Positions 48 to 17,875 of a stretch of DNA of 25,042 nt are shown piece after piece. Source of the stretch: a virus. The notes below the pieces were generated by a model. The model saw only the letters and a list, made by a program, of their open reading frames with translations, was not told the DNA's origin and ran no database searches. The translations under genes were made by a program, and so were the position numbers. Numbering within the stretch: position 1 is the first letter of the stretch; each line of letters opens with the position of its first letter. The stretch covers positions 1-25,042 of the IMG/VR virus record IMGVR_UViG_3300046457_000211, one strand, 5' to 3'.

Positions 48-1700
48 TCAGAAGCCTGAAAGGTGAGAGAGCAGATCGAGCTGGCGCATGTCAGCAGGCG
101 GCGCTTCGGGTTCCGGCGCGGGCTCCTGCTTGAGCAGCTCGAATTTGATGCGCGCATCGGCGATCGCCACATACCCCGCATCGAGCTCGATGCCGATGAA
201 GTTGAAGCCCTCGCGCATGGCGGCTTTGCCGGTCGAGCCCGAGCCGCAGAATGGATCGAGAACCGTGCCGCCCGGCGGCGTCACGAGGCGGCAAAGATAG
301 GCCATGAGCTCAGTGGGCTTCACGGTCGGATGATTGTTTCCGCCGAGCTCGCCCGCCGCTTCGGCGACTTGCACCTTGCGCAGCGTCGTGCCCTGCTTGA
401 ATTTCGGGCCGGGATGCTGGAGCCCTTCGTGACGGTCGGCAGGCGACGCTTTCGGGCAGTAGATAAACCTGTTACCCGTAGACGGCTCGCAGCCCTTCGC
501 CCCAACTTCCGAGCTCGTCGGCGTGATGCTGAATGTGACAGGCTCGGCAGAGCCATCGGATGACCAATGGCTTGCTGTAATCGTCGTGATGCCGGTCGGC
601 TCTCTCGTTGCCACAACGCTCACAGGGCTGTTCGTCGGGGAAAGATTTTTTTGCTGCCACTCGCGCAAGAACTTTGGCGCGATATTCTGTATCGCCGTGG
701 TAACGGCTTCGGCGAGCTTCCTTGATTCGCTCGGCGTTACGGCTATAGAAGGTGCCTTCGCAGCGCTTAACTGCATTCCCGCGTGGCGCAGCGAGATTGC
801 TGCATCGCTTTGAGCAATAGCGTCGAGTACGTTTGACAGGGACAAACTGGACGCCGCAGTGAGCGCAGGAAATAGGCGCAGGTTTTGGATGAGCCATTCT
901 TCGTCGCTAGTCTCGATCTGTTTGAAAAAGCGTGCCGCCGACGTGTCCTGATCCACGCGCGGTTCAGTTGCCGGGCGGCCGTCGAACCGCCCGTAGACGT
1001 TGTTCGTTTTCGAGCTCGGCTCGTTGCCGGTCACAGGCGCACGCGCGCCCGGAGCGTTCGGGAAGAGCGCGAGCACTTCAGGCGATCCATCGTGGATGAC
1101 GTTCGCGGGCCAGCGGCCGACGTATTCGCGCTCGACGCGCTCGGCACCGCGCCGCGCTTCCGCTGTACCGGCTGCGCCGAAGGCATTGCCGCTGCACGCT
1201 TCGAGCGAGCCGATGCGCTCAATGCGCACTTCGTCGCCGACGCGGCACGCATCGATATAGAGCGCGCCGGGACCGTGTTTCTCGACGTTCGCCGCGACCG
1301 TGCCATCGAGAGCCTTGCGCGCGACGCAGATCGGCTCATGCGCCGGTTTAAGTGCCGTGCCGCGCCCTTCGCCGATGTTTCGCGACTTCGGAAAGCCAGT
1401 CGCGTAGACCCACATGATTTGATCGCGCAGCTCGAAGCCCGCGTCCTCAATGGCGCAAGCCATGCGGTGATACGTGCGCGAGCCCGAGAAGGCGAGCAGA
1501 TGCCCGCCGGGCTTCAGCACGCGCAGCGCTTCGCGCCACAGATCGACATTGTTCGCGATGCCGGATTTATCCCACGCTTTACCCATGAAGCCGAGCTCGT
1601 AGGGCGGGTCGCACACGATCGAATCGACCGAGTTTTCTGGCATTGAGGCAAGCACGACAAGGGAATCGCCGTGATGGAGTGTGTAGCGCTCTTTCATCAT
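48..1700 (-). CDS. DNA methyltransferase (beta-class N4/N6 type), interrupted by an HNH insertion
   Basis: Predicted AdoMet-dependent DNA methyltransferase that would modify adenine (N6) or cytosine (N4) in phage DNA, for example to evade host restriction. Catalytic motif IV DPPY is at residues 31-34, a conserved HPTVKP lies at 457-462, and AdoMet-binding motif I LDPFCGSGST at 481-490. This IV-TRD-I order is that of the beta class. At 550 aa it is longer than typical phage relatives. The excess is a roughly 140-residue block between ARFFKQIE (256-263) and RFIYCPKAS (411-419), where uninterrupted relatives generally run almost directly from RFF to YCPKAS. That block has lower GC and coincides with an HNH frame in another phase. 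The activity of the interrupted enzyme is therefore uncertain. It starts at tandem ATGs with GAGGAAAA about 12 nt upstream. The 1747-1780 operators separate it from the divergent operon at 1804. Confidence 0.9.
   Translation of the reverse strand: MMKERYTLHHGDSLVVLASMPENSVDSIVCDPPYELGFMGKAWDKSGIANNVDLWREALRVLKPGGHLLAFSGSRTYHRMACAIEDAGFELRDQIMWVYATGFPKSRNIGEGRGTALKPAHEPICVARKALDGTVAANVEKHGPGALYIDACRVGDEVRIERIGSLEACSGNAFGAAGTAEARRGAERVEREYVGRWPANVIHDGSPEVLALFPNAPGARAPVTGNEPSSKTNNVYGRFDGRPATEPRVDQDTSAARFFKQIETSDEEWLIQNLRLFPALTAASSLSLSNVLDAIAQSDAAISLRHAGMQLSAAKAPSIAVTPSESRKLAEAVTTAIQNIAPKFLREWQQKNLSPTNSPVSVVATREPTGITTITASHWSSDGSAEPVTFSITPTSSEVGAKGCEPSTGNRFIYCPKASPADRHEGLQHPGPKFKQGTTLRKVQVAEAAGELGGNNHPTVKPTELMAYLCRLVTPPGGTVLDPFCGSGSTGKAAMREGFNFIGIELDAGYVAIADARIKFELLKQEPAPEPEAPPADMRQLDLLSHLSGF
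472..897 (-). CDS. HNH homing-type endonuclease nested out of phase inside the methyltransferase gene
   Basis: A 141-aa frame lies wholly inside the methyltransferase gene on the same strand but in a different phase. It has an N-terminal zinc-finger-like part (CAHC at 11-14, CSKRC at 28-32), a basic linker, and a C-terminal HNH core: CERC at 92-95, DRHHDDYSKPL at 101-111 and WLCRACHIQHH at 115-125. This is the CxxC...HH...CxxCH...H arrangement of small phage HNH endonucleases that nick or cut DNA and spread by homing. It begins about 30 nt after the methyltransferase ARFF motif and stops in TAA just before RFIYCPKAS, so it fills the extra block almost exactly. The surrounding flanks are too short to hold a group I intron core. 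There is no strong ribosome-binding site, only a weak GAAGA. The protein family is clear; whether it is expressed, and how the host gene tolerates it, is inference. Confidence 0.82.
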   Translation of the reverse strand: MAHPKPAPISCAHCGVQFVPVKRTRRYCSKRCSNLAAPRGNAVKRCEGTFYSRNAERIKEARRSRYHGDTEYRAKVLARVAAKKSFPDEQPCERCGNERADRHHDDYSKPLVIRWLCRACHIQHHADELGSWGEGLRAVYG

Positions 1701-12817: not shown

Positions 12818-15800
12818 TCAGAACAGCGCTCCTTGCTCTTCGTCCACCTTCTGAGCGTGCAGGAACGACGCGAGCCCCGTATCGTCCATGCCCTCGAGCG
12901 GCGACGTCATGAGCTCGCGCAGCACGTACTTCTTCGCGAGCCGCTCGCGAGCCTTCGCCACCGACGCATGGCGCGGCACATGATCGATTAGCTCGATCGC
13001 GTTCTTCTGCCCGATGCGATTGATCCGCCCCTGCCGCTGCGCGTGCACCATCGCCGTGTCCGGCGTATCGTAATTCACCAGCCAGTTACCCGACTGGAGA
13101 TTCGCGCCGGTCGCGGCCGCATCGGAGCAGACCACGATATCGGCCTTGCGCTCGCCGCTGTCAGGATTGAACGCCTGAATCTTCGCCGCCTTCTCTGCGC
13201 TCGAATCGGAGCCCGTAATCGTCACGACGCGATGCCCTTCGGCCTCGAGCCGCGCGCGCAGATTCTCGACGGCGCGGCGCGACGTGGCGAACACGACGCC
13301 CGGCTTGCCCTTGCGCTTCGCCGCCTCTTGCGCGACGCGATCCAGACCGGCGGCTTGCGGATGATCGTAGATGATCGAGCGCTCGGCGGCATTGCGCAGG
13401 AGCCCCGCCGACTTGCCGAGCTCGTGCGCGATCGCCTCGTGCTGATCGGCGGGCACGCCATCGAACATATGCGGCGCGAGCGCCTTGACCGCGCCGACGT
13501 CGAGATCGCCCATCAAGCGGCTGATTTTCACCTTGCCGAGATTCGAGTCGAGCGCCTTGAGCGCGGCGTGCTGCGCGTCGGATAGGTCCGTATGCGCCTC
13601 GCTGCGCGTGACCGGCACGTCCGGCTTGATGCTTGCCGTGTAGAGATGCCGCGCCATCTCGCGCTTGAGCCCGTCCTTCGCCGCGATCGTATCGCCGCCA
13701 TACATGCGCATGAACGCGCCGCGATCGTTGTAGCGCGCCGGGTCCATCTTCTGAAGCAGGCTGAAAATCTCCGACGCGTCATTCTTGACTGGATCGCCGG
13801 TCGCGTGCACGTAATACGGCTCGGCGTCGCCGTGCTTATCGGTCAGCGCCGCGACCGTGTGCGACAGCGTCGAATCCTCTTTCCCCTCGCGATCGAGCAG
13901 ACCGTGCGCCTCATCGGCCATGATGAAGTCGAAGTCGATGCCGTGCTTCGCGAGCGCGCCGCGCACGTAGGCGGCCCGCTCGGCGCGATCCATGCCGCGC
14001 ATTTTCTCGGCGGCCGCTTCCGGCGTGATGCCGTCATGCTCGGCGGCCATGTGCAGCACGTCATCGCGAAGCGCCTGATGCGTCACCACCGTGAAGTGGT
14101 TTTCCGGGTCTTTGTACGCGGCCATGCGGCTTTCGCGCGTGCCGCCGGGCTCGCAATGCCACTTGAAGGCGCCCGCTTTCAGGAAGCGCAGCGCTTCGGC
14201 GCCGAATTGGCCCTGAACGATCGACGGCACCGCGAACAGCCCCTTCTTGACCTTGCCTTCGCCGTGGAGCTGCGCGAACGCACCGAGCCCAATGCCCGTC
14301 TTACCCGAGCCGACACCGAAGCCGAGCGCGACGCGCTTGTTCGCGCCGATCATCTTGATTGCGCGCTGCCGCTTAGCGCCTTCCGGCCCGCTCATCGATG
14401 CGTGGAAGAGCTTGACCGGCTGCCCCGGCTTGAAGCCGCCGCCGATCGCCTGAATGACGCTCGCGAGCTTGTTCTCGGCCGCGTGCCCGATCGTGCGGCG
14501 CTCATCGGCCGCGAGCGGCTTCTCTTCGTGCGTTTCCGGCTCGTCGTCGGAGCTGAAGAAGCCCATCTGCGCCTGTTCGAACGCGGCCTTCTGTTCTTTC
14601 ACCGCGTCGAGCTTGTCCTTGACGCTGCCCGACTGGAATTTGCCGTCCGCGCCCTTCTGAAGCCCGGCGATGAGCGACTTTTCCTTCGCGATGCGCTCTT
14701 CGCGCGCCGCTGGATCAACCGCGTCGAGATGGTTCAGGTTGTTCCGGATGACCGTGCGCCCGAGCTTGAGCGGCGCGTCGGCGTGGAGCGTGTTGTATGC
14801 CTTCGCGAATTCGTCCGTCACGCGCGAGCGGATCAAGTCCTGAATCGCCTCGTAGGCTTTCGGCTGCGATCGCAGTTGCTTCGCGTAGTCGTCCCACGTC
14901 AGCCCGGCGGCCTTGATGTTGCCCGCGAGCTCATCGCGCGCCGACGCCCAAGCGGACCAGCTCGGATTCTCCGACTCTTCGCCGAACATGTCCGTCACCG
15001 TCTTTTCGGGCTCGTCCTGCATGAGCTTGTCGTACTGCGCGAGCATCGACGCGCGTTCGGGCGAATCGTGCGCGACGTTCTTGTGGAACCATGCGCGCAG
15101 CGCGGCCCTATCCGCGCGCGTGAGGCTGCCGATTGCCTTGTAGGCGACAACGCCCTCAGGCACGGCCGCGAGCGCCCTGTGCGCGGCGTCTTGCGCCTTG
15201 TCGTCGGCTTCGAACGCCTGTTTGTTCAGCGTGGAGCGCTGCCCGCCCCAATGCGACGCCACGAACGCGTCAGCATAGCCATCGAAGAGCGGCGCGAGCT
15301 GTTCGGCGCGCTGGAGTTGCTTGCCGTCGAGCTTGTTCGGCGCTACCGCGTCAAGAGCAGCACGGTATTCGTCGCTTCGAGCGGCTCCGACTTTGTCGAA
15401 GAATGCCGCCGATTGCACGTCCGACAGGATATCGGCGGGCGCGTCGCCGTCCGCATACCGGCCCCCGATATAGTCGCGCAGCGATGCCTGCAGATCGTCC
15501 GCCTTGCCGTCGAACGGCTTCGCAAGCCGTTGAGCCACGCCAGCATCGAGCTTGAGCGCCAGATCAGCGCGATTTGCAAAGCCCTGAGGAAGCCAGTTCG
15601 CCTCATCGTGTTTCCCCTCCATGATGTCAAGATTGCGCCGCACGCGGGCAATGCCCTCGTGATCCACGTTGCGCGCGAGCTTGTCGAGCCCCGACGCATT
15701 GAGCGTCAGGAACACGTTCACGCCGGTTCGCTCCAGCTTGTAATCGCCCGGCACCATGCCGAGCGCGCGCACCTGACGCACAGCCGACTCGAGCGGCGCG

Positions 15801-17875
15801 CGACCGAGCGACACGGTCAGACTGTTGCGCTGGCGCTCCTTCATCGCCGCCACGAGCGCGGCATTGGCTTCCATCTCGCCCAACGACATGCCGAGCACCT
15901 TGTCAGCCGCCGCGAGCGCTTCTGTGCGCCGCTTGTTGATGCCGACCTTCGTCACGACGTCGTCAGCCCCGTCAGCGGCCTGCATTTCGAGCTTGGCGGC
16001 CTCTTCGTGAAGCTGCTTGACCTGATCGAGCGCCGCGCCCGCCACGCTCATATAGCGCTGCTTGTGGAAATCGGCGAACTGATCGGCCATCTCGTCGGCG
16101 CGATCGTCGCCAAGATCGGCACGCAAGCGGCGCGCGAGCACCTGAGCGGCCCCGGCCATGCCGAGCACGTCCACCACCGAGCGATCCACGAGCGAGGCGC
16201 CAGCGGCCGCCTGAGACAGCGCATTGAGCGCATTGAAGGCGCCTGCCGTCGCGTGCGTGCCGAGCGTCTCTTCGGTCGATTTGCTCACTTCGGCGAGGAA
16301 TGAGCGCGTAGACAGCGTCGCGAGCTCGTCCTTGAGCGCCTCTTGTGCCTGCTGAGCCGTCGCCGGATGCACCTCGAGGACATACGCCTGCGGCTCGACG
16401 TCGCGCGCCTGATCGACGTCACGCGATGCCTTGCGCGCGGCCGCGACGACCGCCTGCATTTTCTTCTGCGCGACCAGCAGCGCCGCCGCCTGTTTCGCCT
16501 GGACGACTTGCGGCTTCAGATCGGGCTTCTGGAGCTGCGCGGCCGCAATCTCCGCGTCGATTTTCTCGGCTTGGATCTGTTTCGAGTCCTGTGCGGCCTG
16601 TTCCGCTGCCGCCTGTACGTCGTCCTTGCCCTGTATCGCCTTGACCTCGTCGGCGAGCCCCTCTTCTGTCAGCCCCGCCTTTTCCGCCCGAACCTTGAAA
16701 TCCGGCGCGAGCCCGTTCTCGTTCACCGGCTTGACCGCGTCAAGATCAGCCACCGACAAGACCGCCGCGTCATCACTGACAAGCGGCACGTCCGGCCCGA
16801 ATGCCTTGTCGATTTGCTCTGGATCAGCCAACAGCGCTTGTCTCTGGAGCCCGACAGCGGCCTTCGCTTTCGCCAGAAGCTCGGCGTGATAAGCCTCTGC
16901 GGCCTTTTTTGCGGCCTTGTCGGACAAGCCTTGTAGCTGCGCCGCTGGCAGTGAGAGCGAATCCGCGCCCCATCCCATTGCTTCAGCGACAGTCGAGATG
17001 AAGTCGTTCTCGGCTTGGCGTCTCTGATCCTTTATCTGCTGGCGAACAAGCTGCTTGGCTTCGTGCGTGCCGTTGAGCTTGTCCTGCTTGACCTGAGCTT
17101 GTCGCGCCTCCCTGTTTGCGGCTTGTCGTTCAGCGCTTTCTTGTCGATACTCGCTTTCCGACTTGACGCCACGCAGCTTCAGGTAGTTGAGCTTCCCACC
17201 CGCACCACCGATAACGTGCATCACCCCCGAGCCGTGGTGCGTCTCCTGCACGAGCACCGGCACCCCCTTGGAGCCTTCCCCATGCGGATGCACCGTAATC
17301 CACCGTGCGCCCGCTGGAATCGCCTCTGTGCTCCCCTCTGCCTTCTGGAGTATCTCTCCCCTGTGGGAATGGTCCTCTTCGGCCTCAGGCGTCAAATTTG
17401 ACCCTAGCCGAATCCGCCCGGCGTCATCCACCACGAAGCGCGGCTCGACGGCTTGACGCGGCTGTACGGCCATATCCGGATATTTCGGCGCGAGGACCGA
17501 CCAATCGAACGGAACGCCAATGAGCGGCGTGTCCGCATCGCTTCCCCTGTACGGCGTGAGCGCTGGCAGATCGCCCGCGAGCGCCTTGCGCATCACGCGC
17601 ACCGGCTCGAAATGCGTCACGCGCCGCGCCCCGATATCGTCCACCGTGGGCACCGGCTCCAGCTCTACGGCCCAATGCCCGGCAGCAACCACCAGCCGTG
17701 CGCAGAACTCCCCCGCCCCACTCTTACGCATCCACCCGCATGCATCGGCATTCGCCAGCACGCGCGCCACGTCTGAGCTTTTTAACTGATTGGTTAATGA
17801 CACAGCGAACGAGAACGCGAGCGCACCGTCGCGGAGCTGATAGGCGGAATCGGTTTGATAGGTCATAGCGGCCAT
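12818..17875 (-). CDS. Giant SF2/SNF2-like DEAH helicase-domain protein
   Basis: 1685 aa. The C-terminal third is a superfamily 2 helicase/translocase. Walker A GVGSGKTG is near 1188-1194, DEAH is at 1321-1324, a motif III-like HATGDP follows, then domain 2 with VVFATSRRAVENLRARLE and VVCSDAAATGANLQ, and motif VI QRQGRINRIGQ near 1614-1624. The IGQ ending of motif VI and the overall layout resemble SNF2-type translocases. Residues 190-238 hold a repeated-looking glycine-rich block (HPHGEGSKGVPVLV ... HVIGGAGGKLNYLKL) also familiar from large phage proteins. About 240-1130 is helical and Ala/Gln/Lys-rich. DarB-like antirestriction proteins carry such helicases and can be injected with phage DNA; the parallel is inference, and no methyltransferase domain is present here. 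Start choice between Met1 and Met4 is unresolved, as neither has a clear ribosome-binding site. Confidence 0.9.
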   Translation of the reverse strand: MAAMTYQTDSAYQLRDGALAFSFAVSLTNQLKSSDVARVLANADACGWMRKSGAGEFCARLVVAAGHWAVELEPVPTVDDIGARRVTHFEPVRVMRKALAGDLPALTPYRGSDADTPLIGVPFDWSVLAPKYPDMAVQPRQAVEPRFVVDDAGRIRLGSNLTPEAEEDHSHRGEILQKAEGSTEAIPAGARWITVHPHGEGSKGVPVLVQETHHGSGVMHVIGGAGGKLNYLKLRGVKSESEYRQESAERQAANREARQAQVKQDKLNGTHEAKQLVRQQIKDQRRQAENDFISTVAEAMGWGADSLSLPAAQLQGLSDKAAKKAAEAYHAELLAKAKAAVGLQRQALLADPEQIDKAFGPDVPLVSDDAAVLSVADLDAVKPVNENGLAPDFKVRAEKAGLTEEGLADEVKAIQGKDDVQAAAEQAAQDSKQIQAEKIDAEIAAAQLQKPDLKPQVVQAKQAAALLVAQKKMQAVVAAARKASRDVDQARDVEPQAYVLEVHPATAQQAQEALKDELATLSTRSFLAEVSKSTEETLGTHATAGAFNALNALSQAAAGASLVDRSVVDVLGMAGAAQVLARRLRADLGDDRADEMADQFADFHKQRYMSVAGAALDQVKQLHEEAAKLEMQAADGADDVVTKVGINKRRTEALAAADKVLGMSLGEMEANAALVAAMKERQRNSLTVSLGRAPLESAVRQVRALGMVPGDYKLERTGVNVFLTLNASGLDKLARNVDHEGIARVRRNLDIMEGKHDEANWLPQGFANRADLALKLDAGVAQRLAKPFDGKADDLQASLRDYIGGRYADGDAPADILSDVQSAAFFDKVGAARSDEYRAALDAVAPNKLDGKQLQRAEQLAPLFDGYADAFVASHWGGQRSTLNKQAFEADDKAQDAAHRALAAVPEGVVAYKAIGSLTRADRAALRAWFHKNVAHDSPERASMLAQYDKLMQDEPEKTVTDMFGEESENPSWSAWASARDELAGNIKAAGLTWDDYAKQLRSQPKAYEAIQDLIRSRVTDEFAKAYNTLHADAPLKLGRTVIRNNLNHLDAVDPAAREERIAKEKSLIAGLQKGADGKFQSGSVKDKLDAVKEQKAAFEQAQMGFFSSDDEPETHEEKPLAADERRTIGHAAENKLASVIQAIGGGFKPGQPVKLFHASMSGPEGAKRQRAIKMIGANKRVALGFGVGSGKTGIGLGAFAQLHGEGKVKKGLFAVPSIVQGQFGAEALRFLKAGAFKWHCEPGGTRESRMAAYKDPENHFTVVTHQALRDDVLHMAAEHDGITPEAAAEKMRGMDRAERAAYVRGALAKHGIDFDFIMADEAHGLLDREGKEDSTLSHTVAALTDKHGDAEPYYVHATGDPVKNDASEIFSLLQKMDPARYNDRGAFMRMYGGDTIAAKDGLKREMARHLYTASIKPDVPVTRSEAHTDLSDAQHAALKALDSNLGKVKISRLMGDLDVGAVKALAPHMFDGVPADQHEAIAHELGKSAGLLRNAAERSIIYDHPQAAGLDRVAQEAAKRKGKPGVVFATSRRAVENLRARLEAEGHRVVTITGSDSSAEKAAKIQAFNPDSGERKADIVVCSDAAATGANLQSGNWLVNYDTPDTAMVHAQRQGRINRIGQKNAIELIDHVPRHASVAKARERLAKKYVLRELMTSPLEGMDDTGLASFLHAQKVDEEQGALF

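Follow-up and report, generated by a model that had tools for sequence, protein, structure and literature searches.

In the stretch of virus DNA analysed here (hereafter the window; 25,042 nucleotides, IMG/VR record IMGVR_UViG_3300046457_000211), a DNA methyltransferase gene carries an out-of-frame open reading frame (ORF) for an HNH-type endonuclease, and this arrangement is very probably that of a homing endonuclease gene that spares its host gene by dual coding, or overprinting, instead of splicing. The nuclease is nested at the same site and phase, within the same methyltransferase family, in 45 of 45 loci. Judged from these sequences, the element belongs to a widespread second family of the ShiLan kind with an unrelated HNH, and both overlapping readings are, on the evidence below, kept by selection.

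The host gene and the element are laid out as follows, in window coordinates and in order of translation:

48 to 1700, minus strand: host gene, a beta-class N6/N4 DNA methyltransferase (PF01555, phrog_67), 550 codons when read through the insert
1610 to 1599, minus strand: host motif DPPY (motif IV)
924 to 941, minus strand: host motif SAARFF, which forms the upstream half of the insertion site, from alignment
462 to 923, minus strand: inserted element (462 nt, 154 host codons); protein and DNA alignments show that the empty relatives L001, L002 and L005 lack it
898 to 923, minus strand: 5' flank of the element, with an HNH-frame TAG four codons upstream of the ATG and an SD-like sequence that is weak in the window
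472 to 897, minus strand: nested HNH-type endonuclease ORF, 141 aa, ATG start and TAA stop (phrog_2340, phrog_1271)
577 to 597, minus strand: HNH core motif DRHHDDY, residues 101–107, mostly invariant in 26 sequences
523 to 537, minus strand: HNH motif, second half, from H121 to H125, with both histidines invariant
462 to 470, minus strand: RFI, which closes the element at its 3' end and re-creates the RFF-Y strand of the host motif
450 to 461, minus strand: host motif YCPK, which forms the downstream half of the insertion site, from alignment with empty relatives
332 to 315, minus strand: host motif HPTVKP
257 to 228, minus strand: host motif I, DPFCGSGSTG

The host methyltransferase matches PF01555 (7.9e-34) and phrog_67 (5.6e-80), with the alignment split around the middle. 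As the original prediction had it, the HNH ORF lies out of phase on the same strand in a low-GC block of the methyltransferase gene (GC 0.54–0.58 in the block versus 0.63–0.70 around it), and the methyltransferase frame, which is +1 relative to the HNH frame, runs across the insert without a stop. The extra host codons, put at about 140 in that prediction, number 154. Alignment with uninterrupted relatives, the check proposed with that prediction, fixed the borders of the element. Three methyltransferases that are 80–87% identical to the window's (L001, L002 and L005) lack the extra residues and read SAARFF-YCPKAS without the block; because the junction in these empty relatives is CGCTTTTTC^TACTGCCCG, the insert is exactly 923 to 462, with some leeway at the border from a 9-nt degenerate repeat at the element ends (CGCTTTTTC / AGGTTTATC). 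The part of the element outside the ORF amounts to 26 nt before the HNH ATG and 10 nt after the stop, or 36 nt. Most relatives have an element whose 3' end restores RFx ahead of the host Y (RFxY), and the flanking host residues SAARFF, Y, C and K were invariant in our first alignment. Invariant flanking residues are usual at homing sites. The insertion had been placed in the target-recognition region between motif IV and motif I; its position between DPPY and the C-terminal NHPTVKP/motif I stands, but the site is strictly conserved and is not demonstrably a variable target-recognition segment.

Elsewhere in the window, a 903-codon ORF (13592 to 16303, plus strand) runs antisense to a 1685-aa helicase gene (12818 to 17875, minus strand; phrog_62), and is probably a by-product of high-GC codon bias.

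In the nested protein a DRHHDDY...CHxxHH core accompanies paired CxxC zinc motifs, and its ORF matches phrog_2340 (endonuclease, 4.6e-11) and phrog_1271 (HNH, 2e-5) in PHROGs. The best E value to Pfam HNH was 0.045, in two members only. A structural model of the nuclease (pLDDT 86) places strands at residues 100–103 and 114–116 and a helix at 118–129, a beta-beta-alpha arrangement. Fold matches of this model to Hpy99I, the GVE2 HNH and EcoKMcrA are weak (Z 3–4) and tied with other zinc folds, and a Foldseek search of the model against the PDB gave no significant match. The best hit of an hmmsearch against PDB sequences was a CRISPR Cascade CasD chain (E 0.085), from entries that also appear as Cas5-HNH in the fold matching. 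Pfam matches to the Cas12f/TnpB zinc ribbon were judged to reflect shared CxxC geometry only. We assign the putative nuclease as HNH-type on its motif, the PHROGs matches and the weak beta-beta-alpha-Me fold match. In an AlphaFold model of the methyltransferase with its insert the core is confident, while the insert scores mostly <50 apart from a weak helix; given this low confidence, we make no claim on the fold of the insert.

A scan of viral contigs yielded 29 close relatives, and all 29 lie in methyltransferases of this one family, with an open host frame and no change of phase. Profile search added 14 further members and a bacterial genome scan one, its sole true member, in Paraburkholderia phenazinium (L084); a plasmid collection searched for relatives gave no match. 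Including the window, this search for the same HNH at other loci, which the original prediction had proposed, produced 45 loci (about 39 once near-identical copies are merged), every one of them in the same host family and at the same site. Over these loci, a total of 5,879 codons, the host frame contains 0 stops, the HNH frame 1, and the four other frames 84, 261, 327 and 359. Five more distant, non-nested HNH relatives (L129, L131, L133, L134 and L135) have 2–6 stops at that phase, though two short matches (L130 and L132) are open. In L125, a TGA replaces a zinc cysteine codon of the HNH and the host frame is still open, indicating that the host reading outlives the nuclease. The suspicion that the insert kills the methyltransferase is thus not borne out, the host frame being open in every locus, even in the HNH-dead L125.

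For the window alone, an open host frame is unremarkable (P about 0.17–0.6 in synonymous shuffles). Across 26 HNH genes, by contrast, synonymous shuffles contained a mean of 17.5 host-frame stops and a minimum of 10, where the observed number is 0, and shuffling with host codon usage made the P of a stop-free host frame far lower. The host-frame peptides also resemble one another more than stop-free shuffles do (z of 5, 12 and 15 for the three thirds), with the strongest constraint over TGITTIT...FSIT. Similarity in the +2 frame was likewise raised; because codon conservation lifts that frame too, part of the similarity signal could be shared ancestry, and we therefore made a sharper test based on codon positions.

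Conserved His, Asp and Tyr residues of the HNH use opposite synonymous codons depending on their position (His, p = 3e-13; Asp, 2e-9; the rows of these codon tests are non-independent and all their p-values descriptive). For His, CAC prevails 25:1 at column 109 and CAT 23:1 at column 129. In the flanking methyltransferase, which served as a control, conserved His and Asp have no position-specific codons (0.3 and 0.17), and Tyr, Phe and Asn show some codon heterogeneity (p from 2e-4 to 3e-3). Arginine offers a comparison within single codons, because the HNH frame leaves both its first and its third base free. The third base, which falls on host position 2, is chosen in a strongly position-specific way (p = 3e-37, V = 0.53), whereas the first base, which is host position 3 and mostly silent, is nearly free (p = 0.03, V = 0.34). 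This contrast is the signature predicted by amino-acid selection on the host frame, and at the codon level the Arg test and the flank control speak against shared ancestry as the whole cause. Two-fold third-base identity is about equal in the HNH (0.61) and the flanks (0.58), so synonymous sites are near saturation. The insert had been described as junk-like, a view that finds no support in the shuffles and codon tests, which point to a host-frame peptide constrained at the amino-acid level; the dual coding proposed alongside it gains support from this constraint and from the family-wide count of 0 host-frame stops.

On a tree of 58 methyltransferases, from which the insert columns were left out, invaded and empty genes are interspersed, with 14 changes between the two states, at least 7 of them forced by well-supported branches. 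The three methyltransferases nearest to the window's are all empty. In 260 of 276 pairs, similarity is higher between the HNHs than between their hosts, and HNH and host distances are weakly correlated (r2 0.21). As read from the tree and these distances, the pattern is that of an element that homing has spread horizontally and that is in part inherited vertically, and the scattered presence and empty nearest relatives agree with the mobile HNH insertion that had been predicted.

Since an HNH-frame TAG lies four codons ahead of the window ATG, the HNH must start internally, with no simple read-in. An SD-like match of at least 4 nt precedes the HNH start in 24 of 36 members, as against 6.1 ± 2.2 expected from random positions (maximum 16); at the window HNH start the match is just 3 nt. 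We also considered a frameshift from the host frame into the HNH and set it aside, given this stop and the short upstream distances that recur in most relatives. The predicted RNA fold of the HNH start region is no more stable than that of shuffles.

In the reading that we favor, the HNH nuclease would cut the conserved SAARFF^YCAKAS site in intact methyltransferase alleles that co-infecting phages carry, and repair of the cut allele would copy the element in. The host mRNA would be translated through the element to give a methyltransferase with a loop of ~154 residues whose end re-creates RFxY, and internal initiation at the HNH ATG on that mRNA would yield the nuclease. As truncating the host would be costly and synonymous sites of the HNH are free, selection for a stop-free host frame would set the synonymous codons, and the host frame would encode a tolerated, partly conserved peptide. 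Here we infer nuclease activity, cutting of the empty site and methyltransferase activity with the loop in place.

HNH homing endonucleases are often intron-borne, and the clean insertion between codons would suit a self-splicing or other intron in which the HNH is an intron-encoded homing endonuclease and the block is removed from the mRNA. We nevertheless consider an intron very unlikely. The 26 + 10 nt outside the ORF, together with the lack of a group I or group II match when the window and 20 relatives were scanned with Rfam, uphold the original judgement that a group I core has no room here, and the fold of the insert RNA is no more stable than shuffles (z −0.8). Splicing, moreover, would not require a host frame that is stop-free and residue-constrained in all 45 loci. 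Family-wide openness and codon constraint also weigh against a recent insertion, opened by chance, that has left a dead, junk-bearing methyltransferase; the window by itself would allow this (P 0.17–0.6), but the host motifs are intact on both sides of the insert and L125 has kept its host frame after HNH loss, making such an accident extremely improbable.

Could the HNH be the cognate restriction enzyme of its methyltransferase, in a restriction-modification pair? PacI and Hpy99I are precedents for small restriction enzymes of the HNH type, and the latter turned up as one of our weak fold matches. Yet a cognate nuclease would be expected beside the gene and not within it, many close methyltransferases lack an HNH, whose presence is scattered, the two are loosely co-inherited (r2 0.21), and all copies occupy one conserved host site, as homing predicts; we give a restriction-modification pair scant credence. 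The constraint on the host-frame peptide, greatest over TGITTIT...FSIT, would also fit an unusual intein or a host domain, with a functional or protein-splicing peptide on which the HNH was later overprinted. This too we hold to be highly improbable, as a search with the host-frame peptide found only the same contigs, always with the HNH, the peptide has neither a credible family match nor intein motifs, and free-standing relatives of the HNH exist.

An overprinted homing endonuclease has a published precedent. The arrangement had been called unusual, but its kind was described in 2025 under the name of ShiLan domain, from a mycobacteriophage DNA methylase with an out-of-frame HNH (PMC11855218; first report of the element in PMC9957025); that element has another site and an unrelated HNH. 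The window element resembles ShiLan gp65 in that an HNH is inserted out of frame in a phage DNA methylase, both methylases belonging to one family, and in that the host frame, +1 of the HNH, is free of stops. Both kinds are also patchily distributed, repeat host-like residues at one end, and have neither intron nor intein. The sites differ (FEPI^VVARKPL in ShiLan versus SAARFF^YCAKAS here), and the ShiLan HNH is not usefully alignable with the window HNH (blastp best E 0.03). ShiLan elements, of which about 10 copies were compared, have a GTG start with no detectable RBS (PMC11855218), whereas most members here have an ATG and SD-like sites. The window element therefore falls outside the ShiLan domain in the narrow sense of same site and homologous HNH, and has all the features of an out-of-frame HNH insertion in general, namely a methylase host, an open frame, disjunct presence and no detectable intron or intein. 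With its other site and unalignable HNH, it represents a new family of a known kind.

Pacc40 gp60, compared here by the paper's description, likewise contains a hidden out-of-frame HNH-like ORF in a phage methylase, but the host is a divergent helicase-methylase and the site is another one (PMC11855218). Intron-borne (I-HmuI type) and free-standing phage HNH genes (phrog_2340, phrog_1271) have in common with the element the HNH motif, zinc-binding cysteines and expected homing; they avoid harm by RNA splicing or an intergenic position, whereas the element here would do so by dual coding. Inteins also insert at a conserved motif and are translated with the host, but the window element has no splicing domain and its nuclease is in another frame.

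Further out-of-frame HNHs occur in the loci that we collected. A second, ShiLan-like one at FEPI^VVARKPL (L053:981-1553, L073:918-1514, L122:1427-2083, L125:1568-2077) gives two overprinted nucleases in one methyltransferase gene; these are uncultivated phage contigs, not named mycobacteriophages. A third site, near SKAIDKAAG, holds an out-of-frame HNH/zinc ORF of 202 aa (L078:1887-2492); it belongs to the methyltransferase gene (L078:1477-3339, annotated as a single protein) of the E. coli phage Escherichia phage BUCT618. Out-of-frame HNHs in the other phase are found near GFPKS in the same methyltransferase family (L048:1076-1594, and L080:1841-2473 in Mycobacterium phage Optimus gp142), and an unrelated one occupies a loop just downstream of NAGLE (L070:325-759) on a contig that also carries the window-type HNH family. 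Inteins with an out-of-frame HNH inside were seen in two terminase-like genes (L136:1519-3987 and L138:1354-3927, HNH ORFs L136:2105-2890 and L138:2000-2929) and in a methyltransferase (L029:1902-4346, HNH ORF L029:2344-3336), the inteins being recognized by a PF14890 match in L136 and L138 and by motif in L029.

This family extends the known kind by a second insertion site with its own HNH lineage, by its member count and by codon-level evidence of dual coding. The analysis also contributes a copy whose nuclease is dead while the host frame is intact, internal SD-like sites, and more out-of-frame HNHs, both in the host family and within inteins. Because most members here have an SD-like internal start, the question of how ShiLan elements are translated becomes testable. 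Such elements are probably under-counted, since a gene caller annotates a single long methyltransferase and overlooks the nuclease. The family-wide statistics go beyond a single case and point to a selfish nuclease that hides in a coding gene by dual coding, with the host frame under amino-acid selection. On balance, we lean toward the view that several unrelated HNHs occupy four or more sites in this phage methyltransferase family, that some inteins likewise have an out-of-frame HNH, and that overprinting is in general a third route, beside introns and inteins, by which a homing endonuclease gene can reside within a coding gene, its synonymous codons shaped for a real, selected host-frame peptide.
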